A stretch of DNA of 64,000 nucleotides from Roseburia rectibacter (GTDB taxonomy: Bacteria; Bacillota; Clostridia; Lachnospirales; Lachnospiraceae), in the NCBI RefSeq assembly GCF_014287515.2, contig NZ_CP092473.1, forward strand, positions 1,577,001-1,641,000. The letters run 5' to 3'. Below are positions 46,955 through 62,669 of this stretch, in pieces (the first letter of the stretch is position 1; each line of letters opens with the position of its first letter). The notes beneath the pieces are model-generated. The model had not been told where the DNA came from. It did not search any database and saw nothing but the letters and a program-made list of their open reading frames with translations. A program made the translations under genes and the position numbers.

Positions 46955-47695
46955 TTGTTAGAAGTAGCAATATGCGATGATGATAAGGAAGATCTTGACA
47001 AAGCGGCGCTGATGCTGGATAAAATTCTTTCAGAATATCAGGTTCAATATCAGATTCGGTCATTTCTATCGGCGAATGAGCTGCTGAACAATAATGACAA
47101 GATTGATATCGGAATACTGGATATTTCCATGGAAGAACTGGGCGGAATTACGCTCGGAAGAAAGCTGAAAGAAAAAAATCATGATATAAAAATTATATAC
47201 ATTACCAGTTATGAAGAATACATGGCACAGGCGATTAATAAGGTACATGCGTTTTCTTTTTTGTGTAAACCGATCAATGAAGAAGAAATGAAAACGCAGA
47301 TTATGGAAATTCTGGGGCAGGAGAAATGTCCGGAAATAGAAAAGGAATTTGAAATACTAGATGAATCAGGAACAAAAGCAGGTTGTGTGCGTTTGAAATT
47401 AAACGAGATATTATATTTTGAGTACATAAAAAGATCCAGAAAAGCAGCAATTATTCTGGAAGATTGCAGATATGAATGTGAATGTACATTTGAAAACCTT
47501 GTGGAAGAATTACAACCATATGATTTTGCGGTAAATCACAGAGGCTGTCTTGTAAATCTGAGACATATTGAGAAGATACAGGGATTTCATATTTATCTGG
47601 ACAATGGGAAAGAACTGTCCCTTGCACAAAAAAGAAACTCTGATTTCCGGGAAGAAATGAATAAATTTTTGCAGAAAACCCAGAGGAGAGAATAG
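46955..47695 (+). CDS. LytTR-type response regulator (first system)
   Basis: 246 residues from a TTG start with GGGAGGAG six bases upstream. Receiver domain: ICDDDKEDL at the start, phosphorylated Asp in GILDISMEE (about residue 55), Lys in FLCKPINEEE. The C-terminal part (residues 140-240) is LytTR (LNEILYFEYIKRSRKAAII, VNHRGCLVNLRHIEKI). LytTR regulators bind pairs of direct repeats upstream of target promoters; such a pair occurs at 49021. The kinase gene follows three bases later. Confidence 0.88.
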   Translation: MLEVAICDDDKEDLDKAALMLDKILSEYQVQYQIRSFLSANELLNNNDKIDIGILDISMEELGGITLGRKLKEKNHDIKIIYITSYEEYMAQAINKVHAFSFLCKPINEEEMKTQIMEILGQEKCPEIEKEFEILDESGTKAGCVRLKLNEILYFEYIKRSRKAAIILEDCRYECECTFENLVEELQPYDFAVNHRGCLVNLRHIEKIQGFHIYLDNGKELSLAQKRNSDFREEMNKFLQKTQRRE

Positions 47696-47698
47696 AAG

Positions 47699-48991
47699 AT
47701 GGATAAGATTTTACTTGCGATATGTAATGGACTTTCCTGTTTTATTATCTGTACAATTCTTTTTCAATTTATGAATGAAAGATATAAGAAAAGTTACAGC
47801 AATAAAACTTTGTACATAGCAGCAGAGATAGCGATGGGAATCACTGCATTTGGCATAAATATGCTGAACTTTGCAATATTGAATCTGCTGATATGGTTTG
47901 TTGGAGTTGGTGTAACGGTATATTTTCTGTATTACGAAGATGCAGACAGACCAATCCGTAGAATCACTGAGTGTGAAGTACTGGTTTTATGTATGTCTGT
48001 ATGTGAAACGCTGGGAGTGCTTCTGTTACACTGTTTTTTGCAGATTTGTGGAATATCAAATATTGATGTGGTCATGCAATATTGTCTGGAAGTGACATTT
48101 TCAAAGATAGTGCTGATTTTCCTATACTATGTTTTGATAAACAGATTGATAAAAAGGACAGAGGTAGCCTGTTCCAGAGAACAATATATCATATATGGAA
48201 TCCTGCTTTTTTACAGTCTGGTCAATATGCTTGTGATTGTGCAGAATTTCAGGGATGGACAGAAAAGCTATCTGTCAGCGGTAAATATGGGTTGCATCGT
48301 TTTGGCTGACCTGTATCTTTTGTATTATGTCAAAATGGCAGACGAAAAGAGATACTATGAAAACCGCGTAAAGGCATTGGAGCAACAGGCAAAAATGCAG
48401 TATGAGTATTATCTTGCACAGAATGAAAAATATAGTCAGACAGTACGGATATTACATGATGTGGATAAGCATATCAGGGCTATCGAGAATTTGTATGGAA
48501 CAGAGAGGGAGCATACGGCTGGCGAATATGCAGAGGCAATCAGAAGTACACTGGCACCACTGATTCCTATATCTTACACAGAGAATCCGATACTGAACAT
48601 TCTGCTGACAGATAAAAATGCTGTCATGCAGGAGAAAGGGATACATTCGGACATTAAGATAGACAATGTAGAATTATCTTACATAGAGCCGATAGACATA
48701 ACAACTATTTTCGGGAATCTGCTGGACAATGCGATTGAAGCTGCCGCAAATGCTGACGGAGACAAATACATTTTTATTAAAATCAGTGCCTATCATAAGA
48801 TGACGGTAGTTCATATAGAAAACAGTTGTGGAAAGGTAAAATGGAAAAAACGTATGCCGGTATCAGATAAGGGAAAAGGCAGAGGGATAGGACTCTTAAA
48901 TGTGAAACAGAGCATAGATAAGTATGATGGGGATTTACAATTAAAACAGGATGGAAACAGATTTGTAGCAGATTTGTTTCTGAATTCATGA
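47699..48991 (+). CDS. GHKL sensor histidine kinase (AgrC-like, first system)
   Basis: 430 residues. About six membrane segments in residues 1-215, then a cytosolic GHKL kinase: phospho-acceptor His in RILHDVDKHIRAIENL (about residue 257), N-box GNLLDNAIEAA, G-box GRGIGLLNVKQSI. The architecture is that of AgrC/VirS peptide-pheromone kinases. No agrB or agrD gene is next to it, so the signal is unknown. It is coupled to the regulator upstream and ends at a terminator. Confidence 0.85.
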   Translation: MDKILLAICNGLSCFIICTILFQFMNERYKKSYSNKTLYIAAEIAMGITAFGINMLNFAILNLLIWFVGVGVTVYFLYYEDADRPIRRITECEVLVLCMSVCETLGVLLLHCFLQICGISNIDVVMQYCLEVTFSKIVLIFLYYVLINRLIKRTEVACSREQYIIYGILLFYSLVNMLVIVQNFRDGQKSYLSAVNMGCIVLADLYLLYYVKMADEKRYYENRVKALEQQAKMQYEYYLAQNEKYSQTVRILHDVDKHIRAIENLYGTEREHTAGEYAEAIRSTLAPLIPISYTENPILNILLTDKNAVMQEKGIHSDIKIDNVELSYIEPIDITTIFGNLLDNAIEAAANADGDKYIFIKISAYHKMTVVHIENSCGKVKWKKRMPVSDKGKGRGIGLLNVKQSIDKYDGDLQLKQDGNRFVADLFLNS

Positions 48992-49020: not shown

Positions 49021-49068
49021 AAATCGTAGTTGGTGCAAAAAAATCGTAGTTGGTGCAGAGCGTATAAA
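49021..49068 (+). promoter_or_regulatory. LytTR-type direct repeat pair and -10 box
   Basis: AATCGTAGTTGGTGCA occurs twice with a 20-base period (49022 and 49042), followed by TATAAA at 49063-49068. Two direct repeats one helix-turn pair apart, upstream of a -10, is the arrangement bound by AgrA/LytTR regulators. Confidence 0.6.
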
Positions 49069-49146
49069 ATATGAGAAGAATAGTGCCGATAAAACTATAA
49101 AAGAATGGAACATGATATAAGTTATATTAAGGATATTGGTGATATT

Positions 49147-49482
49147 ATGAATATTTTTTTTAACAGTCGAATTTATACCAATCAGTCATTCATTAATACG
49201 CTGTATGGGCAACAACGAAAAACTACAAGAAGTCAAGATGCAGGTTGCAGCGGTACAAGAGATACTTTAACGATAAGCGCATCAGGAAAGGAAAAGCTTG
49301 TAAAAAATACGAAAGGAAGAACACATAATACAAATGTTGACAAAAGTATTGATTTGAAATCCTATATAGCTTCAGCCCAAAAAACAAATCAAAAAATAAT
49401 TGATAATGCAGGGACACAGATTAATGCGAAAACAAGTGAATATATGAGTACAGGTAAGGCTTTTAGGGGAGACCAGTTATGA
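49147..49482 (+). CDS. Small Asn/Ser-rich protein, first gene of the first operon
   Basis: 111 residues from the ATG at 49147; an ATG at 49105 in the same frame is an alternative with no better ribosome site. N-terminus NIFFNSRIYTNQSFINTLYG lacks a Sec signal. The middle has TLTISASGKEKL, echoed in the next protein as TLSISKTGQE, so the two share a segment. It overlaps the next gene by four bases (ATGA). Function unknown; candidate export substrate. Confidence 0.55.
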   Translation: MNIFFNSRIYTNQSFINTLYGQQRKTTRSQDAGCSGTRDTLTISASGKEKLVKNTKGRTHNTNVDKSIDLKSYIASAQKTNQKIIDNAGTQINAKTSEYMSTGKAFRGDQL

Positions 49483-50243
49483 AGATTTATAATAATATGA
49501 ATATTACATATTCTGCAATCGAACAAAACAGCAGAAAAAATACAAAGCAAAATATTCCGGCAGATTTAGAAAAGAAAATGACACAGTACACAGATACACT
49601 TTCTATTTCAAAGACAGGGCAGGAAATCTTTAAGCATTTATCATCAGTTAGTTTTATGGATTATGTCAATCGGTTTGAAAATGAAGTAACAGAGGTATTT
49701 GCAAAGGAAGATACGACACAGGGGGTGAAGTCAGATACTTTTGAACATCATGTAAACAGAATGGCAAAAGCATATAACAAAATGAAAAACAGCATTGAAG
49801 AAAAATATGCGGCACAAGATTATGAGCAAGAGTATTATGTGACGGAATCGGGCAAAATTGAGGAATTAACCAAAGAAAAAGAACTGGATATGCTGAATCA
49901 GGCATATGAAAATCACAGTAATTTTATGGCAACTTCCACAGAAATCTGGTCAGAATTACAGGATTTTACACCATCGGTAGTTTACCATAAAGGAAGTGAA
50001 CAGACAGCAAATGAACAGAACATAGGTGAGAACCAGGAGAATACTGCAAGATCTAAAGAAAAGGGGGTTATCCAAAATTCGGCATATCAGGCATTTTTAT
50101 CTGCCATCCAGTCGGATAACCAGAAATTATCGCAGCAGTATTCGGGTGATTGGAAAGATTTAAGGCTAAATCTGAATGTATCAGATGGTGATCGGAAAAT
50201 GCTTAATGGTATTTGGGATTATTATGCTATGGAGAGTGAATAG
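49479..50243 (+). CDS. Candidate flagellar-type export substrate, paralogue 1
   Basis: 254 residues, translationally coupled to the gene before. N-terminus MKIYNNMNITYSAIEQNSRK is Asn/Ser-rich with no Sec signal; then DTLSISKTGQE and a helical body with Glu/Lys/Gln-rich stretches. It ends NGIWDYYAMESE. A near-identical gene lies at 59923-60681. No named family recognised. Its gene neighbours include FlxA-like and FliD-like proteins in the paralogous operon, which suggests a link to flagella. Confidence 0.7.
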   Translation: MKIYNNMNITYSAIEQNSRKNTKQNIPADLEKKMTQYTDTLSISKTGQEIFKHLSSVSFMDYVNRFENEVTEVFAKEDTTQGVKSDTFEHHVNRMAKAYNKMKNSIEEKYAAQDYEQEYYVTESGKIEELTKEKELDMLNQAYENHSNFMATSTEIWSELQDFTPSVVYHKGSEQTANEQNIGENQENTARSKEKGVIQNSAYQAFLSAIQSDNQKLSQQYSGDWKDLRLNLNVSDGDRKMLNGIWDYYAMESE

Positions 50244-50286
50244 ATTCCGAATGACAGAGGAATGAAAATAATTGGAGGAAACGAAA

Positions 50287-50871
50287 ATGAGTATAGCAGG
50301 AATTAACGGTTATAATTATTCAAATTATTATACAGGAACAAAAAGAAACACTGCGAAAGCAAACGGTATGAATTCTGGTTTGTTATCAAATGTAAGTAGT
50401 ACATCTTCTAATATTACATTACATATGTCGGGAACGGGAGATAGTGGAAATGCATTAACAGCAATAGGATTTCCGGATGGCAGTAGTGCATCTGTATATA
50501 AATCAGATACATATGATTCGGCGAACCCGGAATACAGGGTAAGATATTGGGACAAAGAAGGAAATTACACAGATACAAATGTACAGATAAATGGTGTTAA
50601 TCCAAGAAATGCAAGTTATTTGGAAATGCTTGCATATACAACATATAGTGATGTAGAAGGCTTTACGAAAAATGCTTTTGGAGATTTCATGAATGCGGCT
50701 GGTGGTGTGAATGGCAACATCACTTATGATTCTGACAGCATAAATGAAAAGAAAGACTATATGAGCATGATTAAAGAATTTATGCAGTTACAATATGATT
50801 CGAACAACTTATCAGGTTATCTGTCATATAAGGAATTGTATGATTACATAAATGACAGAACAGAGAGGTGA
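50287..50871 (+). CDS. Small secreted-type protein of the first operon, unknown
   Basis: 194 residues from the ATG at 50287 (GGAGGAAACGAAA upstream; a TTG at 50272 contains that site and is rejected). Start MSIAGINGYNYSNYYTGTKR is typical for this set. Beta-rich middle (ITLHMSGTGDSGN, EYRVRYWDKEGNYTDTNVQI), helical end. It lacks the C-terminal motif of its neighbours (ends NDRTER). Function unknown. Confidence 0.65.
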   Translation: MSIAGINGYNYSNYYTGTKRNTAKANGMNSGLLSNVSSTSSNITLHMSGTGDSGNALTAIGFPDGSSASVYKSDTYDSANPEYRVRYWDKEGNYTDTNVQINGVNPRNASYLEMLAYTTYSDVEGFTKNAFGDFMNAAGGVNGNITYDSDSINEKKDYMSMIKEFMQLQYDSNNLSGYLSYKELYDYINDRTER

Positions 50872-50880
50872 TTCAATTAA

Positions 50881-51468
50881 ATGGAAATATCAAATAATTA
50901 TAGCACAGCAAAAGTGTGGAACACATCGAATAAAAATGTTTCTAAATCTTCTGAAAAAAACAAATGGAAATTAACGGATTCTTTAAAAGAGAAGATTGTT
51001 GATCTGGCAAAAAAAGATGCACAGGACAATGTATATATGGGAAATGCATTTATGAATTTGAGAAAGACGGAAGTAAGCAAAGTAGCCCCGAATAGAGCTG
51101 CTTTAATTGGAAAGTTTAGTCAATCAATGAATTCAGGTAATATGTCAGCAATGAAAGAAGTTGAGGAAGCAGACAAAAAATGGCTCTGTATGTTGTTTGG
51201 AATACCTTATGAGGCAAAATATCAGGGAACAGGGACAGGCTCGGCAATTCATGTATACAATGAAGATGGCGAAGAAGTTTTGACCTATACAGGGGGAGTA
51301 GGCTGGCAGAAAAAAGAAACAAAAGCAGAGTCACAGGTTCATTCAGCATTAAAAATGACATATTATGAGGCATTTAGTGAGGCGAGAAAAGCATTAAATA
51401 GTGAAGAAAAGGCTGGCAGTATAAACGAAGACATAATATCACAAGGCAACTTCGATATGAAAGCGTAA
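50881..51468 (+). CDS. PDRK-type small protein of the first operon
   Basis: 195 residues, GAGGTG ten bases before the ATG. Start MEISNNYSTAKVWNTSNKN; a helical part with LRKTEVSKVAPNRAALIGKF that corresponds to SDVAPDRKQLYEQ in the gene at 52668 and TVSPDRKAIYES in that at 54306; then a beta region ending in GGVGWQKK. The C-terminus GNFDMKA fits the hydrophobic-Asp-hydrophobic pattern. The three genes form one family. Function unknown. Confidence 0.65.
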   Translation: MEISNNYSTAKVWNTSNKNVSKSSEKNKWKLTDSLKEKIVDLAKKDAQDNVYMGNAFMNLRKTEVSKVAPNRAALIGKFSQSMNSGNMSAMKEVEEADKKWLCMLFGIPYEAKYQGTGTGSAIHVYNEDGEEVLTYTGGVGWQKKETKAESQVHSALKMTYYEAFSEARKALNSEEKAGSINEDIISQGNFDMKA

Positions 51469-51615
51469 AATGTGTGATTTAATAATGTGTCTTATATGGG
51501 AATGAGCAATGTATGGCAATGTTCAGGAAACAAAAAATCTAATGAGTCATTATGAAAGTGACGGTGATTATGTTAATTATAAAGTGTCACGTGATTAATA
51601 AGGAGGACTTGCACT

Positions 51616-52668
51616 ATGCAGATTAATGCTAATTATTCTGTGAATGGCGTGCCGTATGATAATAAACGTAAGCAGAATAATATCCCTCAATTTAGTACGG
51701 AATGTGCGGTTCAGGAAAATGAAAATATAAATCCATATATGGCAGAACCACTGGTATATGTATGTGACTGTTATCAAAAATTTAATGTAGTGACAGGGAT
51801 GCCCAAGAGTAACTTCGGAGATTCTTTTGGCTATGATATGCAGAAAGATATATCCAGTCATATGACCAATTTTTATGCCGGAAAGGTGAGCAGGGGTGAA
51901 CTTAATTCCTATTTTGAGGAATGTTGTACTTCCATGCGTACCTATCGGACAAGTCAGCATCAGACATCCGGAACCAATGAAGCAGATAATACGCAAATCG
52001 TAAGTGAGATGTATGAGGTATTTGCAAAAGAAAATGCAAGGGCAGCAAGTCAGGCAAACTATCAGGAAGGAAAAGCATTGAATGAGAAATACTATTCTGA
52101 TAGTCACAGTGACTGGACTTATTATAATTCAGATTATTACTATCAATGCAATGAAACCAATGCGGCATTGAGGGAATCTGTCAAGCAAATGATCGAAAAA
52201 TGGGATTTGGATGAGATTGACTGTGATAAAATCGAAGCAAATTCCAGTCTTACATTAGATGGTGGTTTTGATTTTAACAGCACATGGAATTTTGAGTTTA
52301 GAAATCAGGCTGGCAGGAGCAGTCTGGCAAAGGAATCAGCGATACCGCCTGAGAATTTTAAGATGTTTTTCAAGGAACAGGTAACATCTTTTACAGAGGA
52401 CAATAAATTTAATGGAAATCTGAAAATAACAATCGGAGAGAATAATTACGATTTAAAGGTTCCATTTCAGACGTTACGCACCGGATCGGAAGGGGAAATT
52501 TGTAATGTCTGGGATTTGATGGAAGATTATTATCCGAAGTCAGAAGATACCTCTAAAGTTAAAAATTTCCTGGGGAATATGTCTGTATTTACACGGTGGT
52601 ATGCATATGAAACAAGAATTAATGACATATTTGGTGATTATGAAGTGTCACATAAGGAGTTGAGTTAA
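51616..52668 (+). CDS. Larger member of the export-substrate set, unknown
   Basis: 350 residues, AAGGAGGA before the ATG. Start MQINANYSVNGVPYDNKRKQ. The middle is helical; residues 195-300 are predicted beta-rich (LTLDGGFDFNSTWNFEF, LKITIGENNYDLKVPF). It overlaps the next gene by one base (TAATG). The preceding gap 51469-51615 has only a 29-codon frame (51509-51598) without a ribosome site, perhaps a remnant. Function unknown. Confidence 0.65.
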   Translation: MQINANYSVNGVPYDNKRKQNNIPQFSTECAVQENENINPYMAEPLVYVCDCYQKFNVVTGMPKSNFGDSFGYDMQKDISSHMTNFYAGKVSRGELNSYFEECCTSMRTYRTSQHQTSGTNEADNTQIVSEMYEVFAKENARAASQANYQEGKALNEKYYSDSHSDWTYYNSDYYYQCNETNAALRESVKQMIEKWDLDEIDCDKIEANSSLTLDGGFDFNSTWNFEFRNQAGRSSLAKESAIPPENFKMFFKEQVTSFTEDNKFNGNLKITIGENNYDLKVPFQTLRTGSEGEICNVWDLMEDYYPKSEDTSKVKNFLGNMSVFTRWYAYETRINDIFGDYEVSHKELS

Positions 52669-53333
52669 TGGGTATATCATTGTCAGGTATAGGAACTGTT
52701 GGAAAAGAGCAATTAATTTCCTCATGCAGTAACGGAGAACCGAATTGGTCTTATATTCCAACAAAAGGGAAAAGTTCAAAAACGCATGCGGAATTTGTTA
52801 GTGAAATTAAAGAACTGGCACGACGAGCAGCTACGACAGCAAATAAGACAGAGTACGAATATATTTCCAGACAGGTTCTTGGTTTACGGGCAGAATATCT
52901 ATCAGATGTTGCACCTGATAGAAAACAATTATATGAACAGGCTAAAAATACTATAAAAAAACAAACTGGCAATTCGAAATGCAAAGGATGTGGAGAATTA
53001 TCATTATTGGATTTTTTGGAGAAGGCAGAAGGAAAAAGCAGTAATTTTGCTGAAAAGAAGTTTGCACTGGCGGGAGGAGGAACATTGAATTGTCCAATTC
53101 TAACTACTGGTGGTTATGGTGCTGAAATTCAGTATCAGGGAGTAACGGTATTATCTAATCTTGGAAATGGCTGGGGCTATGAGATGACACCAGCGGAACT
53201 TGCAAAAAAAGATGAATTTTATTCTATTTATTGGAGCGAATATAATTTCGTAAAAGAGAATGGAAGTTCAGAATTGAGAGAGATGCCGGATTATTTGGAT
53301 CAGGATAGACCATCTTTTGAAGCCAGAGCATAA
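52668..53333 (+). CDS. PDRK-type small protein of the first operon, with CXXC
   Basis: 221 residues, coupled to the preceding gene by TAATG. Start MGISLSGIGTVGKEQLISS. The helix EFVSEIKELARRAATTANKT and the motif YLSDVAPDRKQLYEQ align with the proteins at 50881 and 54306. It carries a KCKGCGE pair of cysteines (about residue 105) and ends SFEARA. A terminator follows. Function unknown. Confidence 0.65.
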   Translation: MGISLSGIGTVGKEQLISSCSNGEPNWSYIPTKGKSSKTHAEFVSEIKELARRAATTANKTEYEYISRQVLGLRAEYLSDVAPDRKQLYEQAKNTIKKQTGNSKCKGCGELSLLDFLEKAEGKSSNFAEKKFALAGGGTLNCPILTTGGYGAEIQYQGVTVLSNLGNGWGYEMTPAELAKKDEFYSIYWSEYNFVKENGSSELREMPDYLDQDRPSFEARA

Positions 53334-53370
53334 AATAAATATTGTGCGCAAGGAAAAAATGAGCATAGGA

Positions 53371-53398
53371 GCAGTGCCAGGTGGCACTTTTGATTTTT
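53371..53398 (+). terminator. Terminator of the first small-protein operon
   Basis: AGTGCCA-GG-TGGCACT followed by TTTGATTTTT. Confidence 0.65.
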
Positions 53399-53513
53399 CA
53401 CGTGAAGTCCAGAACTTTATGATAAGATTCATAATCGAAACAATTATGCCGATATATAGAAAAGAACAGGTAAACGGATTTACGATGTGATATGTACAAG
53501 GAGGACAACGGAT

Positions 53514-54258
53514 ATGTCAATGAATGTAAGCACAACCACGGCTGCTTATGCAAGTTACCAGAACAACTACAAGACTGGTACAGCAAATAAGAAAAAGAAA
53601 CAGCACAAACAACAGAAAATACGAAATTAAAGAAAAATACGACTGAAAGCATCGCTGAAAAAAATCTCAGTAAAGCGGCACAAAAAATGCTGGAGAATTT
53701 GCGTGGATCAAGAAACGACATGGATTTTATGGTTGCCGATTTTGAAAATGGTGATAATGCCAAAGATATTTTAGCCCAAAGTGATAAGGAGTATACGGTT
53801 ATTTTCTCAAAGGAAGAAATGGAGAAGATGGCGTCTGATCCGAAATATTATGCAGAAAAAATGCATAGCATTGAGGGAGCTTTGCGTATGTCAGATGAAA
53901 TCAATGCCCAGTTCGGCTTTGAAAGAGCATTTGGTAAGACTAACGGTGGTGTAGATGCTGATACAAAAATAACAAAATTTGGCATCTCTTTTAATAGTGA
54001 CGGAACTACAACCTTCTTTGCACAATTGGAAAAATCATCAGCCAGTCAGAAAGAATATCTTGAAAAGATTCAGGAAAAGAAAGCTGAGGAGAAAAAGAGG
54101 CAAAGAAAAAGGAACAGTCCAAGCAAATCGAAGTACGAAAAACTACAGTTCAGGCAAATTCAAAAGAAGAACTTTTGGATAAGATCAAAAACATTGACTG
54201 GGATTCCATTAAACCGGAGGAGAATAAAATCGGCGGAAGGTTTGATTTTTCAATTTAG
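53514..54258 (+). pseudogene. DUF6033-like protein broken by two frameshifts
   Basis: GGAGGACAACGGAT precedes MSMNVSTTTAAYASYQNNYK. Near 53590, in an A-rich run, the frame must shift to continue (SKAAQKMLENLRGSRNDM, then ASDPKYYAEKMHSIEGALRM, FNSDGTTTFFAQLEKSSASQ). A second shift near 54100 is needed to reach the natural end GGRFDFSI. A copy of the last 400 bases at 61337 is intact over the second site, which shows the original frame. The pattern recalls the DUF6033 family of Lachnospiraceae. Confidence 0.65.
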
Positions 54259-54305
54259 TGAATTTGGAACAGATGAAATATATGCCAATATGGAGGAATA
54301 ATATT

Positions 54306-54947
54306 ATGCAGATAACAAGAGATAATTATTCGCAATATGCTCAAATGGTTCAGCAGATGTTCGGGAAAAAAGCAAGTTCAAATGATCCGTTAGCACAATG
54401 TGATTATGGCAATTTTTCATTAAGATTTAAGCCTGTGGATATTAACTTTACAAAACCGAACTGGGATACTATCATGACAAAACGAGATAAACCTGCGATG
54501 TCAGAAGAAGAATTTGACGAAGCAATAAAAGAACTTGCAAGAAAAGAATTTGTTACTGGAAAAAGGGATGATGATGCTTACCGAAAATTGTGTATGCAGC
54601 ATGGAGAAACAGTATCTCCTGATAGAAAGGCTATATATGAATCAAGCATGAAAAAAACTGGTGGCAAAATGAATGCTGCATGTATGTTTTGGGATTCAAA
54701 AGGTAATAAAACGCTTTCTTATAATCCAGAGTCAAGAAACTGGAAAGCTATAAGTACAGATGAAGAATTTGCAAGAGCAAGAGTGTTTACATCAATTTAT
54801 AATGATGAGTTAGCCCGTTTGAAGGAAGAGTATGGCGAAAAAGCGAAAGGAAATGTTTCTTATAGCAAAATAAAGGCAGATATATCCGCAGAGGAATCAA
54901 AGGAAAAGAACAATAATGAAGGAAATACTATTGATTTGCAGATTTAG
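54306..54947 (+). CDS. PDRK-type small protein
   Basis: 213 residues from the ATG at 54306 (GGAGG nine bases upstream; earlier in-frame starts lie inside the previous gene). Start MQITRDNYSQYAQMVQQMFG; EEEFDEAIKELARKEFVTG and HGETVSPDRKAIYESSM align with the proteins at 50881 and 52668. It ends GNTIDLQI, a clear example of the shared C-terminal pattern. No Sec signal or membrane segment. Function unknown. Confidence 0.68.
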   Translation: MQITRDNYSQYAQMVQQMFGKKASSNDPLAQCDYGNFSLRFKPVDINFTKPNWDTIMTKRDKPAMSEEEFDEAIKELARKEFVTGKRDDDAYRKLCMQHGETVSPDRKAIYESSMKKTGGKMNAACMFWDSKGNKTLSYNPESRNWKAISTDEEFARARVFTSIYNDELARLKEEYGEKAKGNVSYSKIKADISAEESKEKNNNEGNTIDLQI

Positions 54948-55165
54948 ATTGTTGATTGCGTTTTAGTAAATAGTAGATAAAAAACGGAAAGATATTCATC
55001 GCTGGTAGCGGCATTGAGTTCATAAATTACTACTACTCTAGATAAAAGTAGTATTCCGATAAGTTAAAAGATAAAGCAGATGCAAATAGACACGAATCCC
55101 AGCGTATACCAATGAAGGAGTTTATTTCATTTCTTTAATAGTGCAGACATGACTAAAAGACAGGG

Positions 55166-55197
55166 CAGTGAACCAATAATGGTTTACTGCTCTTTTC
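55166..55197 (+). terminator. Terminator before the second two-component system
   Basis: GCAGTGAACC-AATAAT-GGTTTACTGC (one G-T pair) followed by TCTTTT. The rest of the gap 54948-55165 shows no gene. Confidence 0.7.
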
Positions 55198-55241
55198 ACA
55201 ACAAAAAAAGGTCATTTCACAACAACTGTGGCAGATATAAT
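55195..55241 (+). promoter_or_regulatory. LytTR direct repeats and promoter of the second system
   Basis: TTCACAACAA at 55195-55204 and 55216-55225 (21-base period), followed ten bases later by TATAAT (55236-55241). The same pair recurs at 57410. The site probably serves autoregulation by the LytTR protein just downstream. Confidence 0.75.
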
Positions 55242-55293
55242 CTGTTCGTCCGATATAATAAATATATTTATCAGACAAAAAGGAAGTGGCAAA

Positions 55294-56007
55294 ATGCAAA
55301 TAGCTATCTGTGATGATGAAGTATCTATGGTTCAGATACTGGAAGAAAAGATAAAAAAGTTATTGCCGGATGCGGTTATAGATAAATATTTATCGGGTGA
55401 TGAACTGATCGCAAGTGGCAGTAAGCCGGATATTCTTTTTCTGGATATTCAGATGCCGGGAATGGATGGGATGGAAACGGCAAAGATGCTTCGTCAGGAC
55501 AATGAGAATATGATACTCATTTTTGTGACAGCAGCAGAGGAGTATGTTTTTCAGGCATTTGATGTCGGAGCATTTCATTATCTGGTTAAGCCATTTTCCG
55601 ATGAGAAATTGAAAGAGGTTGTGACAAAGGCAGTCCATAACATAAAAAGGAGTTCCAGACTTGAAAAAGACGAAAAGTATATTATGGTACAGACCGCCGG
55701 AAGTCATATAAAGATTTTTCTGCGTGATATTGTGTATGCCGAGGTGTATAACCGGAAAGTTATTATCCATACACGAAGTACGGATATTGAATACTATGGT
55801 AAATTACAGGAATTAAGTGATATGGCAGGAACAGATTTTTTCCGAACACACAGAGCCTATCTTGTGCATTTTAAATATGTAGAAAAATATGATGCAACTT
55901 GTGTAACTATGAAAAATGGAACTGCATTGATTGCAAAAAAGAATTATCCGGAGTTTGTGAGGAGGTATCTGAAGTATAACCAGAGGAAAGGAAATGAAGT
56001 CAGATGA
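55294..56007 (+). CDS. LytTR-type response regulator (second system)
   Basis: 237 residues from the ATG at 55294. Receiver: ICDDEVSMV, phospho-Asp in ILFLDIQMPGMDG (about residue 53), Lys in YLVKPFSDEK. LytTR domain in residues 130-232 (HIKIFLRDIVYAEVYNRKVI, RTHRAYLVHFKYVEKYD). It overlaps the kinase gene by four bases. The paired TTCACAACA sites before this gene and before the operon at 57656 are its likely targets. Confidence 0.9.
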   Translation: MQIAICDDEVSMVQILEEKIKKLLPDAVIDKYLSGDELIASGSKPDILFLDIQMPGMDGMETAKMLRQDNENMILIFVTAAEEYVFQAFDVGAFHYLVKPFSDEKLKEVVTKAVHNIKRSSRLEKDEKYIMVQTAGSHIKIFLRDIVYAEVYNRKVIIHTRSTDIEYYGKLQELSDMAGTDFFRTHRAYLVHFKYVEKYDATCVTMKNGTALIAKKNYPEFVRRYLKYNQRKGNEVR

Positions 56008-57374
56008 GTTTAGTGGAAAGATGTTGGATGATCACATCGAAGTTTTCTGTTATTGCAATTTTGATTATTACAGGAATCTGTTTTGGTGTTTTTGTATATC
56101 CATATATGAAAAAGAAAAGGGAAGCTGCTCTGGTCAGTATTGTTTATATTGGAATTATGTCTGTGCTGTATCTGATACCGCAGCAGATTGGCAATTTTTC
56201 TGCATATATGCTGGGGGTTGTGGCTGCATTTCTTGTGATGTATATACAGGACAGAAGAAACATCTATCAGAAAATATTTCTTGCAGTGACATTTTTTTCT
56301 ATCCGTTGGCTTGCGGTTGCAATGGCAGACAGACTGGATGATTTTATCACAAAAGCTCTGGTTTTTGGGAATACGATTGCAGGAAGACAATGGCTGCAAT
56401 ATGGACTTTATGCTGGAACGAGAATTCTGGATATTGTGCTTTGTATCGTTTTCCTTGCAGTTGCAATCGGTCTGATCAATAAAGCATATGTATACAAAAA
56501 TGATGAAATGAACGTTAAAGAGCTGGTAATGCTCATCATACCTTCTCTTGTGGGAGTTACAGGATATGGCATTCTGCAATATTATCTGAATATTTATGAA
56601 AAAGATACAGGAAAGAGCCTGACAGATACCTATGGATTTTATGGAGCTTTAAGCTTTGTGCATTATTTTATCTCTATCATAGCAATTCTTGTTATGACTA
56701 CGATGTTTCAAAACTGGAAGGTGGCACAGGAAGAACAGACAGGTCAGGAGCTGGTATTAAATCAGGTCAGTAATATGAAAAAGCATATCGGGGAAGTGGA
56801 AAAGCTGTATCAGGATATCCGCAGCCTGCGTCATGACATGGGGAATCATATACAGATGCTGGAACATCTTGTGGCAGAGAATCATATGGATGATGCAGCA
56901 GAATATATGGAGCATTTGAAAAAGGAGTGGAATGAAATATCTCCTGAGATAAAAACGGGGAGTCCTGTCATTGATGTGATTCTGATGGAAAAGTTAAGAG
57001 AAGCAAAGGAAAAGCAGATTCGTTTTATATCAGATTTTCATTATCCGGGGGATACGAAATTAAATGCATTTGATTTAAGCGTGATCTTAAACAATGCACT
57101 GGATAATTGCATGGAAAATGTAAGTGGAGAAAATCCTTATATCAGTATCTCTTCTTTTCGGAAAAACAGTATTTTTATGATAACCATAAAGAACAGATAT
57201 GAGGGAGAGTTAAATTATAAGGACAGTGATCTGCCGGAAACAACGAAATCCGGGAAGGAGCATGGAATTGGACTGCATAATATCCGGAGGGTTGCAAGGA
57301 TGTATATGGGAGATATATCTTTAGAGCAGGAGAATCAGGAAGTGGTTCTAAGTATTATGTTACAGGTAGAATAA
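56004..57374 (+). CDS. GHKL sensor histidine kinase (second system)
   Basis: 456 residues, ATGA overlap with the regulator. Six to seven membrane segments up to about residue 240; then a kinase with His in RSLRHDMGNHIQMLEHL (about residue 279), N-box LNNALDNCMENV and G-box HGIGLHNIRRVA. AgrC-like plan, but no peptide-processing gene nearby. A terminator follows directly. Confidence 0.87.
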   Translation: MSLVERCWMITSKFSVIAILIITGICFGVFVYPYMKKKREAALVSIVYIGIMSVLYLIPQQIGNFSAYMLGVVAAFLVMYIQDRRNIYQKIFLAVTFFSIRWLAVAMADRLDDFITKALVFGNTIAGRQWLQYGLYAGTRILDIVLCIVFLAVAIGLINKAYVYKNDEMNVKELVMLIIPSLVGVTGYGILQYYLNIYEKDTGKSLTDTYGFYGALSFVHYFISIIAILVMTTMFQNWKVAQEEQTGQELVLNQVSNMKKHIGEVEKLYQDIRSLRHDMGNHIQMLEHLVAENHMDDAAEYMEHLKKEWNEISPEIKTGSPVIDVILMEKLREAKEKQIRFISDFHYPGDTKLNAFDLSVILNNALDNCMENVSGENPYISISSFRKNSIFMITIKNRYEGELNYKDSDLPETTKSGKEHGIGLHNIRRVARMYMGDISLEQENQEVVLSIMLQVE

Positions 57375-57378
57375 GGAC

Positions 57379-57408
57379 AAAAAGCACCTTCGAGGTGTTT
57401 TTTATTTG
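57379..57408 (+). terminator. Terminator after the second kinase
   Basis: AAAAAGCACCTTCGAGGTGT forms a tight stem with a TTCG loop, followed by TTTTTATTTG. Confidence 0.85.
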
Positions 57409-57409
57409 C

Positions 57410-57453
57410 TTCACAACAAAAAAAGGGCGGTTCACAACATCGCTGTTTATTGT
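57410..57453 (+). promoter_or_regulatory. LytTR direct repeats upstream of the second small-protein operon
   Basis: TTCACAACA at 57410-57418 and 57431-57439, 21 bases apart, identical to the pair at 55195; a weak -10 TATTGT lies at 57448-57453. Confidence 0.75.
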
Positions 57454-57536
57454 AAAGAAAGATATGCCGAAAGAATCAGTAAAGAGAAATCATGTTGTAC
57501 AGATTTTTTAGGAAACGGATTTCAGAATTTAAGCTC

Positions 57537-57649
57537 AAGGAGGCCAAATCCTCTCCTCGCCATGGGGGTCGGATTTTGCTTCGCAAAACAAGGAGGCTAA
57601 ATCCTCTCCTCGCCATGGGACTCGGATTTTGCTTCGCAAAACAAGGAGG
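57537..57649 (+). repeat. 53-bp tandem repeat carrying ribosome sites and hairpins
   Basis: Two copies of a 53-base unit start with AAGGAGG at 57537 and 57590; a third AAGGAGG at 57643 serves the gene at 57656. Each unit contains CCTCTCC, able to pair with AGGAGG, and the hairpin TTTTGC-TTC-GCAAAA. Confidence 0.8.
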
Positions 57650-57655
57650 ATTAAA

Positions 57656-58456
57656 ATGAGAATCAATGGATTTAGTGGGACAAATACGCAGACAGGAACA
57701 ATGGGAATGACACAGGGGAATGATTCTGTAAGTAAAAATATTCAGAATCAGATTGCAAATGCACAGCAGAAGCTACAGGATTTATCATCGAATGAAGAAA
57801 TGTCATTAGAGGATAAGATGAAAAAGCGTCAGGAGATACAGCAGGAGATTAACAATCTCAATCAGCAGTTAAGACAGCACCAGATCGAGCAGAGAAAGGA
57901 ACAGCAGAGTAAAAATTCGTCATCTATGGATGATATGGTGGCTGGAACAAGTAACACTTCTAAAAAGAAAGACACCGGATTGTCACAGGCAAGTATGCAG
58001 GCGATGATCTCCGCAGATTCTTCCATGAAACAGGCAAAGGTGCAGGGAAGTATGGCAACACAGATACAGGGACGTGCCAGTGTGCTTGAATCTGAAATCA
58101 AACAGGATGCCGGAAAAGGAAATACTGAGAAGAAGGAAGAAGAACTGGCAGAGCTGCAGGCAAAGGCACAGTCTGCGACAGCAGCACAGATGTCTACACT
58201 TGCAGATGCAAATAAATCAGTAGAAGAAGCTGCAAAAGCGGAGAACAGCAATACAGAAGACACTGCAACAAAGAACAATACTGATAAATCCGAGAAAACA
58301 CAGGAATCTGCGGGGGCTGCGGCAGAGGAGACAGACAGCGTAAAGAATACGGATATCAAAGGGGAAACACAGGTGACAGTAGAAACACCGACTCTGGAAA
58401 ATGCACAGAATGCAACACAGCAGGCAGTGTATACACCGATTGATATTCGTTTATAG
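57656..58456 (+). CDS. FlxA-like protein
   Basis: 266 residues from the ATG at 57656 (AAGGAGG six bases upstream). Start MRINGFSGTNTQTGTMGMTQ; residues 25-90 are a Gln-rich coiled coil (QNQIANAQQKLQDLSSNEEM, QEINNLNQQLRQHQIEQRKE) that resembles FlxA, a protein of the flagellar regulon in E. coli. A low-complexity Ala/Glu/Thr region follows. The end YTPIDIRL carries the shared C-terminal pattern. No Sec signal. First gene of the operon controlled by the 57410 site. Confidence 0.7.
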   Translation: MRINGFSGTNTQTGTMGMTQGNDSVSKNIQNQIANAQQKLQDLSSNEEMSLEDKMKKRQEIQQEINNLNQQLRQHQIEQRKEQQSKNSSSMDDMVAGTSNTSKKKDTGLSQASMQAMISADSSMKQAKVQGSMATQIQGRASVLESEIKQDAGKGNTEKKEEELAELQAKAQSATAAQMSTLADANKSVEEAAKAENSNTEDTATKNNTDKSEKTQESAGAAAEETDSVKNTDIKGETQVTVETPTLENAQNATQQAVYTPIDIRL

Positions 58457-58477
58457 TTGGTAAAGGAGAATGGTATT

Positions 58478-59233
58478 ATGTCAGAGATTAAGAGTTTTAG
58501 TGATTACAAAAGTAAATATAACAGCAATGTAGATTATTCCGCATTATTTGGAGAAACTTCCGACAGTTCATCCGTAGGAAACACCAATATGCTTTCTGAT
58601 TATGCTGCGATTAAAAACGGAAGCTATGGAAAACTTATGAAAGCATATTATGCAAAGCAGGATGCAGAAAAATTATCGGGGAAAGGCGATACTTCACAGA
58701 AGCTTACACTGATGAAAACAAGTGCGGATTCCCTGAAAAAATCAGCAGATGCACTAAACGATGCGTCACTCTGGGAAAAAAAGAAAATAAAAAAGAAGGA
58801 TGAAAAGACCGGGGAAGAAACAGAGGTAGAGGATTATGACTGGGATGCAATTACCAAAAAAGTGAAATCTTTTATTGATGATTATAATGATGTTGTTAAG
58901 GAGGCAGGAGAATCCAATACAAAAGATGTCCTTAGAAATGCTTCATGGATGACAGGCATGACAGACAAAACCAGTCATTTACTTTCTAAAATAGGTATTA
59001 CCATAGGAAAGGGTAACAAGCTGGAGCTGGATGAAGATGAATTGAAGAAAGCAGATATCAGTTCATTGAAAACGGTTTTTACAGGTTACAATTCCTTTGC
59101 AGGCAAAACAGCCCAGAAAGCAACTGGTATATCAAATGCTGCGAACCGCGCAAGTGCGACTTATACAAACAATGGTACATATTCTAAAAAGGATTCCTCT
59201 CTAACGTCAAGTAAGATAGATAAGGAAGTATAG
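58478..59233 (+). CDS. FliD C-terminal-domain-like protein
   Basis: 251 residues from the ATG at 58478 (AAAGGAG upstream; an in-frame TTG at 58457 is rejected). Residues 130-225 resemble the C-terminal domain of the flagellar cap FliD: VKSFIDDYNDVVKEAG, a leucine-rich helix, LLSKIGITIGKGNKLELDED, LKTVFTGYNSF. The FliD N-terminal domain and the polymer-forming central part are absent, so it is not a cap protein itself. It ends SSKIDKEV. This gene is the best sequence link between the cluster and flagellar export. Confidence 0.62.
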   Translation: MSEIKSFSDYKSKYNSNVDYSALFGETSDSSSVGNTNMLSDYAAIKNGSYGKLMKAYYAKQDAEKLSGKGDTSQKLTLMKTSADSLKKSADALNDASLWEKKKIKKKDEKTGEETEVEDYDWDAITKKVKSFIDDYNDVVKEAGESNTKDVLRNASWMTGMTDKTSHLLSKIGITIGKGNKLELDEDELKKADISSLKTVFTGYNSFAGKTAQKATGISNAANRASATYTNNGTYSKKDSSLTSSKIDKEV

Positions 59234-59298
59234 TATGTTAAGCCTAAATGACAAGAAGAAAAATCTTTTGTATTAATTTGTCGGGAAGGAGGAACCAG

Positions 59299-59895
59299 AT
59301 GAGTTTTACAGTCAATTTATCCGGTGGAGGTTTACTGATAAATAGATTTAATAGTTCTAATATGTTGAAAAGTACACAGGAAAAATTGCAGCGACAGCAG
59401 GAACGGGATAATAAGGTGGCTTTTTTTGAAGCACAAAAAGAAAATTTGAAAAACCGAAAGGCTGACAGTTTGGAAGAAATCTCTGAAAAGCTGGAAATGT
59501 TTCATAATTATGAGGATGAAATTGCGGCAGCAAATCAGGAGTATAATAATTCACAGATGTTTCATGTCATGGACGAGGCAGAAGAACATGGCGAAAAGAT
59601 TGCGGAAGCTGCTGAGAGGAATAAGCCTAAAACAGAAGAAGAACGAAAGGAAGAAATGGTGGATGAAGCTCTTGGAACAGAGGAAAACAAGGGCATGATG
59701 TCTGAAATCATGGACGAACTTTCGGAGACAACCGAAGAAATGACAGAGCAGATGACGGAAAAAACTGTGGAGAATATGGAAGAACTTCCAGACGAGGTTT
59801 TGCAGGAGCAGCTTGCTACAGATAGTTTAGAGGCAGCAGAAATGGTACAAACAGACACAATTAAAAGGTATGTGCCGATTGATATTAGAGTCTGA
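59299..59895 (+). CDS. Acidic coiled-coil protein with IDIRV tail
   Basis: 198 residues from the ATG at 59299 (AGGAGGAACCAG upstream). Start MSFTVNLSGGGLLINRFNSS, then long charged coiled coils (LQRQQERDNKVAFFEAQKEN, ETTEEMTEQMTEKTVENMEE). It ends KRYVPIDIRV, almost the same as the FlxA-like protein (YTPIDIRL). No membrane segment. Function unknown. Confidence 0.65.
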   Translation: MSFTVNLSGGGLLINRFNSSNMLKSTQEKLQRQQERDNKVAFFEAQKENLKNRKADSLEEISEKLEMFHNYEDEIAAANQEYNNSQMFHVMDEAEEHGEKIAEAAERNKPKTEEERKEEMVDEALGTEENKGMMSEIMDELSETTEEMTEQMTEKTVENMEELPDEVLQEQLATDSLEAAEMVQTDTIKRYVPIDIRV

Positions 59896-59922
59896 TGGTA
59901 TTTATCTGGGAAGGAAACAGCT

Positions 59923-60681
59923 ATGAAGATTTACAATAATACAAATATTACATATTCTGCAATCGAACATAACAGCAGGAAAAATACAAAGCAAAATGTT
60001 CCGGCAGATTTAGAAAGGAAAATGACACAGTATACAGATACACTTTCCATTTCCAAAACAGGGCAGGAGAGCTTTCGACATTTATCTTCTGTCAGTTCTA
60101 TGGATTATCAGAACCGTTTTGAGAAGGAAGTGACGGATATATTTGTCAAAGAAGATACAGAGAGTGTAAAAACTGATTCCTTTGAACATCATGTAAACAG
60201 AATGGCAGAAGCATATAACAAAATGAAAAACAGCATTGAAGAAAAATATGCGGAACAAGATTATGAGCCGGAGTATTATGTGACAGAATCGGGCAAAATT
60301 GAGGAATTAACCAAAGAAAAAGAACTGGATATGCTGAATCAGGCATATGAAAATCACAGTAATTTTATGGCAACTTCAACAGAAATCTGGTCAGAATTAC
60401 AGGATTTTACCCCATCGGTAGTTTACCATAAAGGAAGTGAACAGACAGCAAATGAACAGAACATAGGTGAGAACCAGGAGAATACTGCTAAATCTAAAGA
60501 AAAGGGGGGTATCCAAAATTCGGCATATCAGGCATTTTTATCCGCCATCCAGTCGGATAACCAGAAATTATCGCAGCAGTATTCGGGTGACTGGAAAGAT
60601 TTAAGGCTAAGTCTGAATGTATCAGATGGTGATCGGAAAATGCTTAATGGTATTTGGGATTATTATGCTAATAAAAGGTAA
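59923..60681 (+). CDS. Candidate flagellar-type export substrate, paralogue 2
   Basis: 252 residues, GGGAAGGAAACAGCT before the ATG. Nearly the same protein as the one at 49479 (start MKIYNNTNITYSAIEHNSRK; identical over most of the C-terminal two thirds), but with a different last few residues (DYYANKR). The nucleotide identity is high enough for recombination with the first copy 10.4 kb upstream. Function unknown. Confidence 0.7.
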   Translation: MKIYNNTNITYSAIEHNSRKNTKQNVPADLERKMTQYTDTLSISKTGQESFRHLSSVSSMDYQNRFEKEVTDIFVKEDTESVKTDSFEHHVNRMAEAYNKMKNSIEEKYAEQDYEPEYYVTESGKIEELTKEKELDMLNQAYENHSNFMATSTEIWSELQDFTPSVVYHKGSEQTANEQNIGENQENTAKSKEKGGIQNSAYQAFLSAIQSDNQKLSQQYSGDWKDLRLSLNVSDGDRKMLNGIWDYYANKR

Positions 60682-60714
60682 TGAAAGCTTTGTAATACGA
60701 AAGGAGATGTTAGT

Positions 60715-61327
60715 ATGGCAGTTACAGGTGTAAACAATTACTCTAATATTTACACAAATGCTTATACCGGTAATATACAGAAAAATAATGCTAAGGAAAC
60801 CACAGAAAAGCAGGTTGTGGAGCAAACAGAAGATGTAAAGACAGGGACAACCCGAAAAACTGCAGCGGATGAACTTTCCTATCTTTCTAAAAAATGACAA
60901 TTATAGTTTTACATCAGCAAATTATAGTCCGGGGATGAAATATGGTAAATCAACTACCATGAATGTAGTGATTTCTCCTCAGTTTTTAACAAAAATGGCA
61001 AATGATTCAGACTTAGAAGATGAGTACATAAAAGAAATTGGTAACATGAAAAAACTAGATGAGCAGTTTGCAAAGCAACAAGCAGATATTGGATGGAGAG
61101 TTGAACAGGGATGGGCAATAGATAAAGATGGAAATATTAGTTCATGGGCAATAGGACATAAAGATTCAAAAGTAAAATCCTTTCTCCAGAATATGAGTGA
61201 AAAAGCCGAAGAAATCCTACAGAAGCAGTTGGAAAAAGCAAAGGATACAAAGGAAGAAAAAGAAGTATTCTCGATGAAAAAGCATAAAGAAGTTATAAAA
61301 AAGAACAAGGTTGATTTGAAGGTGTAA
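60715..61327 (+). pseudogene. DUF6033-like protein with a single-base frameshift in an A-run
   Basis: AAAGGAGATGTTAGT precedes MAVTGVNNYSNIYTNAYTGN. At TCTAAAAAATGA (60886-60897) the frame ends; with five instead of six A it would continue (LSKNDNYSFTSANYSPGMKY) for 140 more residues to KNKVDLKV, which has the shared C-terminal pattern. Either a real mutation, a phase-variable switch or a sequencing error. The overall pattern recalls DUF6033. Confidence 0.6.
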
Positions 61328-61358
61328 ATAATCAGATTCGAAGTATTATGCAGAAAAA

Positions 61359-61757
61359 ATGCATAGCATTGAGGGAGCCTTGCGTATGTCAGATGAAATC
61401 AATGCCCAGTTCGGATTTGAAAGAGTATTCGGTAAGACTAACGGCAATGCAGATACTGATACAAAAATTACAAAATTTGGCATCTCTTTTAATAGTGACG
61501 GAACTACAACATTCTATGCAGAGTTAGAAAAATCATCAGCCAGTCAGAAAGAATATCTTGAAAAAATTCAGGAAAAGAAAGCTGCTGAGAAGAAAGAGAT
61601 AAAGAAAAAGGAACAATCCAAGCAAATCGAAGTACGAAAAACTACGGTTCAGGCAAATTCAAAAGAAGAACTTTTGGATAAGATCAAAAACGTTGACTGG
61701 GATTCCATCAAGTCGGAGGAGAATAAAATCGGCGGAAGATTTGATTTTTCAGTTTAG
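61359..61757 (+). CDS. DUF6033-like protein, 5'-truncated copy
   Basis: 132 codons from an internal ATG (MHSIEGALRMSDEINAQFGF). Positions from 61337 on match 53847-54258 closely, but everything before is missing, so this is a truncated duplicate. The C-terminal part is intact: SKEELLDKIKNVDWDSI, GGRFDFSV. No ribosome site precedes the ATG, so expression is doubtful. It preserves the true end of the family. Confidence 0.5.
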   Translation: MHSIEGALRMSDEINAQFGFERVFGKTNGNADTDTKITKFGISFNSDGTTTFYAELEKSSASQKEYLEKIQEKKAAEKKEIKKKEQSKQIEVRKTTVQANSKEELLDKIKNVDWDSIKSEENKIGGRFDFSV

Positions 61758-62036
61758 TTTATTCAGATGAGAATAGAAGCAATTTCATAAAATCTTACAT
61801 ACACACTTGACAATATTCCGCCGAGCGCGGCGTCGGTGAAGGGGTTCGCACCTGTGGTGTGCCAACAGAGGTATCGCGGATGCACTCATGGAAAAAATGA
61901 CACCTTTAATAATGAAGAATAGTGTACAGAAATAGCAAATGCTGTGAAATCAATGGTGTAAATATCAGAAATAAGGAAGCTAAAAGTTGGGCGGCAGATT
62001 AGTTAATAATTTGCCGCCTATATACATTTCTCTCCT
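61758..62036. other. Gap between convergent genes with terminator
   Basis: The stem GGCGGCA / TTGCCGCC around 61990-62019 acts as terminator for both directions. A GC-rich stretch near 61820-61880 (CCGAGCGCGGCGTCGG) has different base composition from its surroundings; no gene was found in it. Confidence 0.5.
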
Positions 62037-62669
62037 TTATACCGATACATCAATAGAATTATGAACGAGTCTGTTACCATTTTGGACAAGTGTAGCTTCT
62101 ACGGATTCTCTTGTGACATTATCAAGAATGCTTGCATCAAATGCTTGTCTGGGCTTCCAATTTGGATTGGCTGATTTTACTGCCGCATACATAGCAGCTC
62201 TATACTGTCCTTCATATTGTTCTAAAGTCCATGTACCACTTAAACGCTTATCTTTGCTGACGCTCAACTGATAATCTTTGAAAATATCGGAACGCTTTGT
62301 TGTGTCACCATTTGAAAGACCTTTTTCCTGAATAAATTCCCGCTTCACATTATCAAACATTTTTTGACGATGATCTTCGGATATATTTGTAAGTTTCTGC
62401 CATGATGTACCTTTTCCAGTAACATCCATACCTGCAACACCATTTGAATTTAATAAATCTCCGTCCGAATCAAACTGCTTCATCAGATTTTTAATAATCG
62501 TATCCCTTCCACCGAATATTTCATATATCATCTTTTCTTCCGGAGACATCATGGATTCATTTTCAATTACTCCAGATAACCAGCTTTTTTCTTTCAATGC
62601 CTTATACTGTTTACTATTTGTATTGATACTATTATAGGTATTACCTAAACCGTTAATATTCATTGACAT
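62037..62669 (-). CDS. Export-substrate-type protein with IDVSV tail
   Basis: 210 residues from the ATG at 62669 (GGGAGG upstream on the minus strand; a longer in-frame start at 62687 lies before that site). Start MSMNINGLGNTYNSINTNSK matches the set. Residues about 65-80 hold an Asp-rich loop (QFDSDGDLLNSNGV) that resembles a calcium-binding loop. It ends HNSIDVSV. It is convergent to the operon, so its regulation must be separate. Function unknown. Confidence 0.65.
   Translation of the reverse strand: MSMNINGLGNTYNSINTNSKQYKALKEKSWLSGVIENESMMSPEEKMIYEIFGGRDTIIKNLMKQFDSDGDLLNSNGVAGMDVTGKGTSWQKLTNISEDHRQKMFDNVKREFIQEKGLSNGDTTKRSDIFKDYQLSVSKDKRLSGTWTLEQYEGQYRAAMYAAVKSANPNWKPRQAFDASILDNVTRESVEATLVQNGNRLVHNSIDVSV

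Follow-up and report, generated by a model that had tools for sequence, protein, structure and literature searches.

A C-terminal tail resembling the end of FliK recurs on unrelated proteins of a gene island in Roseburia rectibacter

We analysed a 64,000-nt window of Roseburia rectibacter DNA (contig NZ_CP092473.1, positions 1,577,001 to 1,641,000), in which 15 genes at 49147–62669 form an island lying after and around two LytTR/GHKL regulator pairs (46955–48991 and 55294–57374). Our subject is a short hydrophobic-Asp-hydrophobic tail at the C-terminus of many of the encoded proteins and its likeness to the end of the flagellar hook-length ruler FliK. The island contains the following features, in window coordinates, with protein lengths in amino acids (aa).

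49065–49092, + strand: sigma-28-type promoter TAAA-N16-GCCGATAA, 12/12 consensus matches, 82 bp 5′ of the first island gene
49147–49482, + strand: 111-aa protein without the tail, first gene after the sigma-28 site
49479–50243, + strand: 254-aa protein without the tail, with a 91% identical paralogue at 59923–60681
50287–50871, + strand: 194-aa protein without the tail
50881–51468, + strand: 195-aa protein ending GNFDMKA, tail letters at 51451–51465
51616–52668, + strand: 350-aa protein without the tail
52668–53333, + strand: 221-aa protein with the variant end SFEARA, 35% identical over 86 aa to 54306–54947
53514–54258, + strand: DUF6033 gene disrupted over several frames, with the FDFSI tail at 54241–54255
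54306–54947, + strand: 213-aa protein ending GNTIDLQI
55294–57374, + strand: regulator pair (LytTR response regulator, GHKL sensor kinase) preceding the FlxA gene
57656–58456, + strand: FlxA-family protein ending PIDIRL (PF14282, E 9e-17)
58478–59233, + strand: short FliD C-terminal-like protein ending KIDKEV, which is not the tail (PF07195, E 7e-8)
59299–59895, + strand: 198-aa protein ending PIDIRV
59923–60681, + strand: 252-aa paralogue of 49479–50243, without the tail
60715–61327, + strand: DUF6033 gene in two broken frames, the C-terminal part (60869–61327) ending VDLKV
61386–61757, + strand: DUF6033 protein, C-terminal part only, ending GGRFDFSV
62037–62669, − strand: DUF3879 protein ending NSIDVSV (PF12995, E 3e-49)

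We defined the tail strictly as φ-D-φ-x-φ at the C-terminus, where φ is hydrophobic and the last position is hydrophobic or Ala; its core reads φ-D-φ-x-[V/I/L/A], frequently with G-x-x before it. Eight of the 15 genes carry the strict tail, seven as read and one behind broken frames, namely (by first coordinate) 50881 (FDMKA), 53514 (FDFSI), 54306 (IDLQI), 57656 (PIDIRL), 59299 (PIDIRV), the broken gene 60715 (VDLKV), 61386 (FDFSV) and 62037 (IDVSV). A preliminary description of the sequence had quoted eight such endings, all of which we located, and had put the number of proteins at about a dozen, which the count lowers to eight. The FDFSI letters are out of frame with the parts of the broken gene 53514 that precede them. 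An intact copy of this gene is present in G001 (L063:10051–10797), the nearest genome compared, which contains 22% of the sampled 31-letter words of the window and has the same island with the same tails. The seven remaining genes comprise five without the tail, 52668 with the near variant FEARA, and 58478 with KIDKEV.

The tail-bearing proteins belong to six families without detected similarity, namely DUF6033, FlxA, DUF3879 and three without a Pfam name. The earlier statement that the proteins are of unlike sequence thus stands for these six families and not for every protein, as three of the eight are DUF6033. Specifically, three gene copies match the DUF6033 model PF19498 (107.5, 48.2 and 77.9 bits, cut-off 25), while 62037–62669 matches the DUF3879 model PF12995 (167.6 bits, cut-off 27) and 57656–58456 matches the FlxA model PF14282 (61.5 bits, cut-off 26.3). 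An ncbifam scan of 10 proteins gave no match. BLAST among the island proteins returns paralogue pairs only, on which ground we rejected homology as the cause of the tail.

Background frequencies were obtained from 100 tiles of G001, which cover 2.0 Mb with 1762 gene calls and exclude the targeted loci, that is, the island, the flagellar operon and other DUF6033 loci. The strict pattern ends only one of the 1762 background gene calls, which has an 11/12 sigma-28 site and is a paralogue of window 59299 at 58% identity. The difference from the window, where seven of 15 genes carry it as read, is significant (Fisher p = 4.7e-15), as it is when families are counted (6/11, p = 7.5e-14), both values being uncorrected for relatedness. 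In addition, the identical five-residue pattern ending 1–39 residues before the C-terminus occurs 0–10 times per position in 1414 proteins. Chance is rejected as the origin of the tail by these background counts.

The tail is kept among orthologues. Across 80 named DUF6033 loci, mostly of Lachnospiraceae, 79 DUF6033 genes were called; 63 end in the strict tail, 78 have Asp at −4, all 79 have Gly at −8, and 58 end in Ile, Val or Leu. The core DUF6033 of G001, for example, ends SFDYSI. The strict tail is found on 10 of the 1194 other genes at these loci, two of which are FliK-like and two of which lie directly 3′ of the DUF6033 gene. Among the matches listed (120 of 225), 69 of 81 near-full-length homologues of 54306 have the strict tail, and some of them end in VDYTA or IDYTA, the very letters of Lachnospiraceae FliK ends; for 59299 the tail is strict in 78 of 97 near-full-length homologues among the matches listed (120 of 936). 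The preliminary description had named two outcomes that would speak against a shared tail, a frequency at C-termini no higher than chance and absence from orthologues, and neither was observed. The tail is real and conserved, and its function as a shared tag would be a further step.

The gene just upstream of DUF6033 (MRITTxMLNETAKRTGIP...) has a conserved end of its own, YDFWG, possibly a tail variant (L233, L244, L252, L261, L270 and L272). An AlphaFold2 model of a DUF6033 orthologue, a weak model built on 40 sequences with a mean predicted local distance difference test score (pLDDT) of 69 and below 50 for the last three residues, gave no PDB match at E <0.001. The literature search found no paper naming DUF6033, DUF3879 or DUF6115.

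The same ending is found on FliK. The operon FliK of G001 ends GNSVDYTA, and a second Flg_hook (FliK-like) protein of this genome ends YSFDVRA. Among the 30 best-scoring FliK proteins of Lachnospiraceae, from 67 genomes with FliK, 27 have Gly at −8 and 26 have Ala as the last residue; of 10 second FliK proteins, seven are strict and all have Asp at −4. FliK and the island proteins thus share φ-D-φ-x-[AV] at the stop, Lachnospiraceae FliK usually has Gly at −8, and FliK and the tail families both occur in flagellar genomes. They differ in that the Flg_hook switch domain PF02120 has no match in the island proteins scanned, and in that the last residue is usually Val, Ile or Leu in the island and usually Ala in Lachnospiraceae FliK. 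The second PF02120 protein is about 600 aa long (L067:2517–4475 in G001); two or three PF02120 matches occur in 53 of the 67 genomes of the family with FliK, some having one of about 1000 aa.

To quantify the likeness, we built a profile solely on the eight C-terminal residues of the 30 FliK sequences. Window 54306, 61386 and 62037 score above all 1762 background C-termini, as do the G001 copy of the broken gene 53514 and the core DUF6033. Background ends scoring as high number three of 1762 for 60869 and 12 of 1762 for 50881, and the profile separates DUF6033 from the background with an area under the curve of 0.99. The profile results therefore make the link to FliK strong for five copies, and for the others it rests on the five-residue core.

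The likeness extends to Escherichia coli, where K-12 FliK ends GNSGVDIFA and K-12 FlxA (b1566) ends AGTIDIYV. In a set of 226 E. coli gene calls, covering the flg, flh-che-mot-fli and Qin regions and three 50-kb stretches, no protein other than these two has the strict tail, and the FliK profile ranks FliK first and FlxA second of the 226 C-termini. Island protein 57656 shares with E. coli FlxA both the Pfam match and the tail (PIDIRL vs TIDIYV), although Lachnospiraceae members are about 230–300 aa long and the E. coli protein has 110 aa. A passage in one report describes FlxA as FliA-dependent and without obvious flagellar function (PMC4183435). E. coli FlxA sits on prophages, namely Qin, 31 IMG/VR contigs (28 at 97–100% identity) and the phage record PV340562; a homologue search with this protein returned close relatives among the matches listed (120 of 152), and a plasmid search with the window FlxA protein gave no match. 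In genomes of the family, FlxA exceeds the Pfam cut-off at 15 places; nine of these end in the strict tail and another two in an Asn variant. The FliD-C-terminus-only protein that follows FlxA in the window (58478–59233) has short counterparts following flxA in several genomes (L043, L045, L047, L048, L051 and L060); their conserved end is another one, KIDKEV or close to it, the Pfam assignment having been run on the window copy.

A further carrier of the tail lies inside the flagellar gene cluster. In G001, a protein of 107 aa encoded directly after sigma-28, between sigma-28 and the DUF6115 gene, ends TSFDVKI (L068:18120–18443). This sigma-28-linked protein has no Pfam match, and its tail Asp is the only invariant column in an alignment of 20 sequences. 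At the 59 loci read, the tail is strict in 54, Asp is present in 56, and the last residue is Ile or Val in 51. The protein is found in 46 of 120 genomes of the family, all 46 with FlhA, and in 85 of 298 genomes of the phylum, 84 with FlhA, the exception being G277, which is 85% complete. Its gene lies 3.1–13.0 kb from flhA in all 68 same-contig cases; among the rest of the 85 loci, four are on another contig than flhA, and in 13 flhA is absent or not among the matches listed.

The other tail families likewise follow the flagellar system. The 120 family genomes include 67 with FlhA, and the set with PF02120 is the identical 67. DUF6033 is present in 41, all with FlhA (p = 1.2e-14, uncorrected for relatedness), DUF3879 in five, all with FlhA, and FlxA over the cut-off in 12, all with FlhA, seven sub-cut-off FlxA matches being excluded from this count. 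The nearest genome, G001, has FlhA and FliK. Sigma-28 sites, scored out of 12 against the consensus TAAA-N14-16-GCCGATA[AT], lie within 250 bp upstream at 11–12/12 for 40 of 78 DUF6033 orthologues vs 15 of 1150 neighbours (p = 8e-41). The counterpart in G001 of the site at 49065–49092 is in the same place, with 11/12 matches. Beyond the first gene, no other called island gene has a site of at least 11/12 within 300 bp, so that the remaining island genes would need this promoter or others. Tails of FliK, the operon protein and FlxA, FlhA co-occurrence and sigma-28 sites together support the tie of a shared tail to the flagellar system that the preliminary description had suggested. Linkage with LytTR genes, which it had named as a check, is seen for the window island with its two pairs, for a second G001 island, which adjoins one LytTR/GHKL pair (L065:12737–14865), and for 11 of 24 FlxA loci searched (L041, L045, L047–L052, L060, L062 and L192). 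E. coli FlxA, for its part, is sigma-28 dependent and on prophages. LytTR/GHKL genes beside the tail-gene islands and FlxA loci suggest that a peptide-type signal may gate the accessory genes.

The N-termini were characterised by a plain hydropathy window and by composition in 13 window proteins, the broken genes 53514 and 60715 being excluded. By hydropathy none of the 13 has a membrane-like segment, the maximum 17-residue mean being 0.94, in agreement with the earlier remark that a Sec signal is lacking. The Ser+Asn+Tyr share of the first 35 residues is at least 0.26 in 11 of the 13, against a background mean of 0.141 and a 95th percentile of 0.257; the Asn/Ser/Tyr-rich starts first noted are thus found on all but 54306 and the truncated 61386. 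In both hydropathy and composition the 13 proteins match flagellar type III substrates, which combine the lack of a Sec signal with a low-complexity N-terminus. Like FlgM and other late substrates, the island proteins have no Sec signal, have Ser/Asn/Tyr-rich N-termini and are sigma-28-linked, and we take their N-termini to resemble that of FlgM. Unlike the island proteins, E. coli FlgM, FlgK, FlgL, FliC and FliD do not carry this tail.

The best explanation of these sequence comparisons is that the island tail and the C-terminus of FliK are one and the same element. The preliminary description knew of no such tag; the last five residues of FliK, however, are a published functional element. 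In the relevant part of a Salmonella study these residues are important for the export switch, and A405V, a change of the last residue, suppresses an FlhA mutant and is proposed to strengthen FliK action there (PMC10965912). A 2026 paper presents a model in which the terminal residues of FliK engage and destabilise the cleaved FlhB C-domain (PMC13344023). The FliK end is therefore already known; in the literature searched we found no mention of it on unrelated families nor, in particular, of a tail common to FliK and FlxA, most subscription papers being outside that literature.

We consider it on balance probable that the tail is a FliK-type docking element on sigma-28-linked clients of the flagellar export gate. 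In this mechanism, FlxA, DUF6033, the sigma-28-linked protein and the island proteins would all offer that gate an end of the FliK type. Since FliK is threaded starting from its N-terminus, its tail would be at the gate last, and a client ending alike would make contact there as its own passage finishes. Binding of the tail at the site of FliK, and export or gate action of the proteins, are what we infer from sequence. The claim that the tail marks a shared export route thus stands as far as its tie to the flagellar system, and the step to an export tag is still conjecture. Of the two roles, cargo or modulator, cargo seems to us the likelier, given the late action of sigma-28 genes, the number and variety of the proteins, and N-termini that resemble export signals. 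More tentatively, and with somewhat less than even confidence, the end of FliK may exemplify a C-terminal gate tag in general use among flagellar type III clients. Such a tag would occur on at least eight unrelated families from E. coli FlxA to Clostridia, among them the protein encoded next to sigma-28 in many flagellar clusters of Clostridia, and mobile islands and prophages would exploit it to plug sigma-28-timed cargo or switch modulators into host flagella.

Several observations weigh against the reading of the tail as a FliK-type docking element. Five island genes (49147, 49479, 50287, 51616 and 59923) are without the tail. The FliK profile separates weakly the window FlxA (106/1762), 59299 (158/1762), the second FliK (36/1762) and the sigma-28-linked protein (47/1762), because residues −8 to −6 differ. 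FliK itself is variable: within Lachnospiraceae its end is strict in 17/30, with Asp in 19/30, and outside the family it is strict in one of nine (LDLRV), four having Asn and the rest ending FTAEA, FSAKA, YVAKA and LSIWA. In several clades where FliK has no Asp, FlxA or the sigma-28-linked protein keeps it. Given how rarely FliK has Asp outside Lachnospiraceae, and that the accessory proteins keep it, the archetype of the tail may be something other than FliK, and the proteins may share another partner. Within single genomes, the tails of FliK and FlxA likewise did not covary, the accessory Asp being kept in clades where FliK lacks it. Among 12 genomes of the phylum with FlxA over the cut-off, the strict tail is shown in five (IDIRL, IDILA, IDIRA, IDIRA and LDIRI), and one further genome has INIQA; the other six either lack the tail, had no gene call, lay outside those read (L193) or are not FlxA genes. 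Two of the seven FlxA matches below the cut-off are in genomes without FlhA, and 11/12 sigma-28 sites precede few FlxA genes and are absent before the window FlxA. Finally, co-occurrence and Fisher values are uncorrected for relatedness.

An alternative that we regard as unlikely, though ahead of the others, is that the tail proteins stay in the cell as switch modulators, competing with or assisting FliK at FlhB/FlhA and tuning hook completion, late-substrate export or flagella number. The sigma-28-linked protein would suit such a role, being tiny, variable but for its tail Asp, and encoded inside the flagellar cluster, and the accessory Ile, Val or Leu in place of the Ala of FliK recalls the A405V change as described in part of PMC10965912. 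However, sigma-28 genes are expressed after hook completion, according to a passage of PMC13344023, which is late for a switch factor. In addition, many different proteins per island are hard to account for as regulators, and the N-termini look like export signals.

It is improbable that the tail is instead an assembly tag for an extracellular structure such as a hook, junction, cap or decoration, recognised outside the cell and not at the gate. The FliD C-terminal-like protein adjoining in FlxA operons and the several paralogues per island point in this direction. Against it, FliK bears the tail and is not a lasting part of the flagellar structure, and E. coli FlgE, FlgK, FlgL, FliC and FliD are without it.

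A degron, or more broadly a C-terminal ligand for a protease or PDZ-type domain that controls the amounts of flagellar proteins, is slightly more improbable still. Short exposed C-terminal peptides are common protease signals, and φ-x-φ-COOH resembles a PDZ ligand class. The most conserved tail position, however, is Asp at −4, which to our knowledge is not a requirement of such ligands, and the genetics of FliK would be left unexplained. Spread of the tail by gene-end duplication and recombination in a mobile island, with no common partner, is suggested by the paralogy and broken copies and by the large recombinase-like gene just upstream, but we disfavour it most strongly, as the tail, in E. 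coli as well as across Clostridia, stands on families that show no detected similarity, and its Asp is invariant or nearly so in independent families.

Through the comparison, what had been an isolated finding on FliK, the importance of its last five residues, becomes a motif that is shared and can be searched for. It offers a concrete way into the study of E. coli FlxA, DUF6033, DUF3879 and a nameless conserved protein of flagellar clusters, and two questions become testable: which proteins dock at the FlhB/FlhA gate, and whether flagella serve commensal Lachnospiraceae for the export of accessory proteins.

Regarding the surroundings of the island, a large gene at 44134–45960 that resembles a serine recombinase lies just upstream of the first LytTR gene and is also present in G001, an indication that the island lies on a mobile element or next to one. 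Transposase-like genes are inserted in the G001 island. Elsewhere in the window, a TwoAYGGAY RNA (11683–11850, − strand, 134.7 bits) and a THF riboswitch (34895–35004, − strand, 88 bits) are the only Rfam matches at gathering score.

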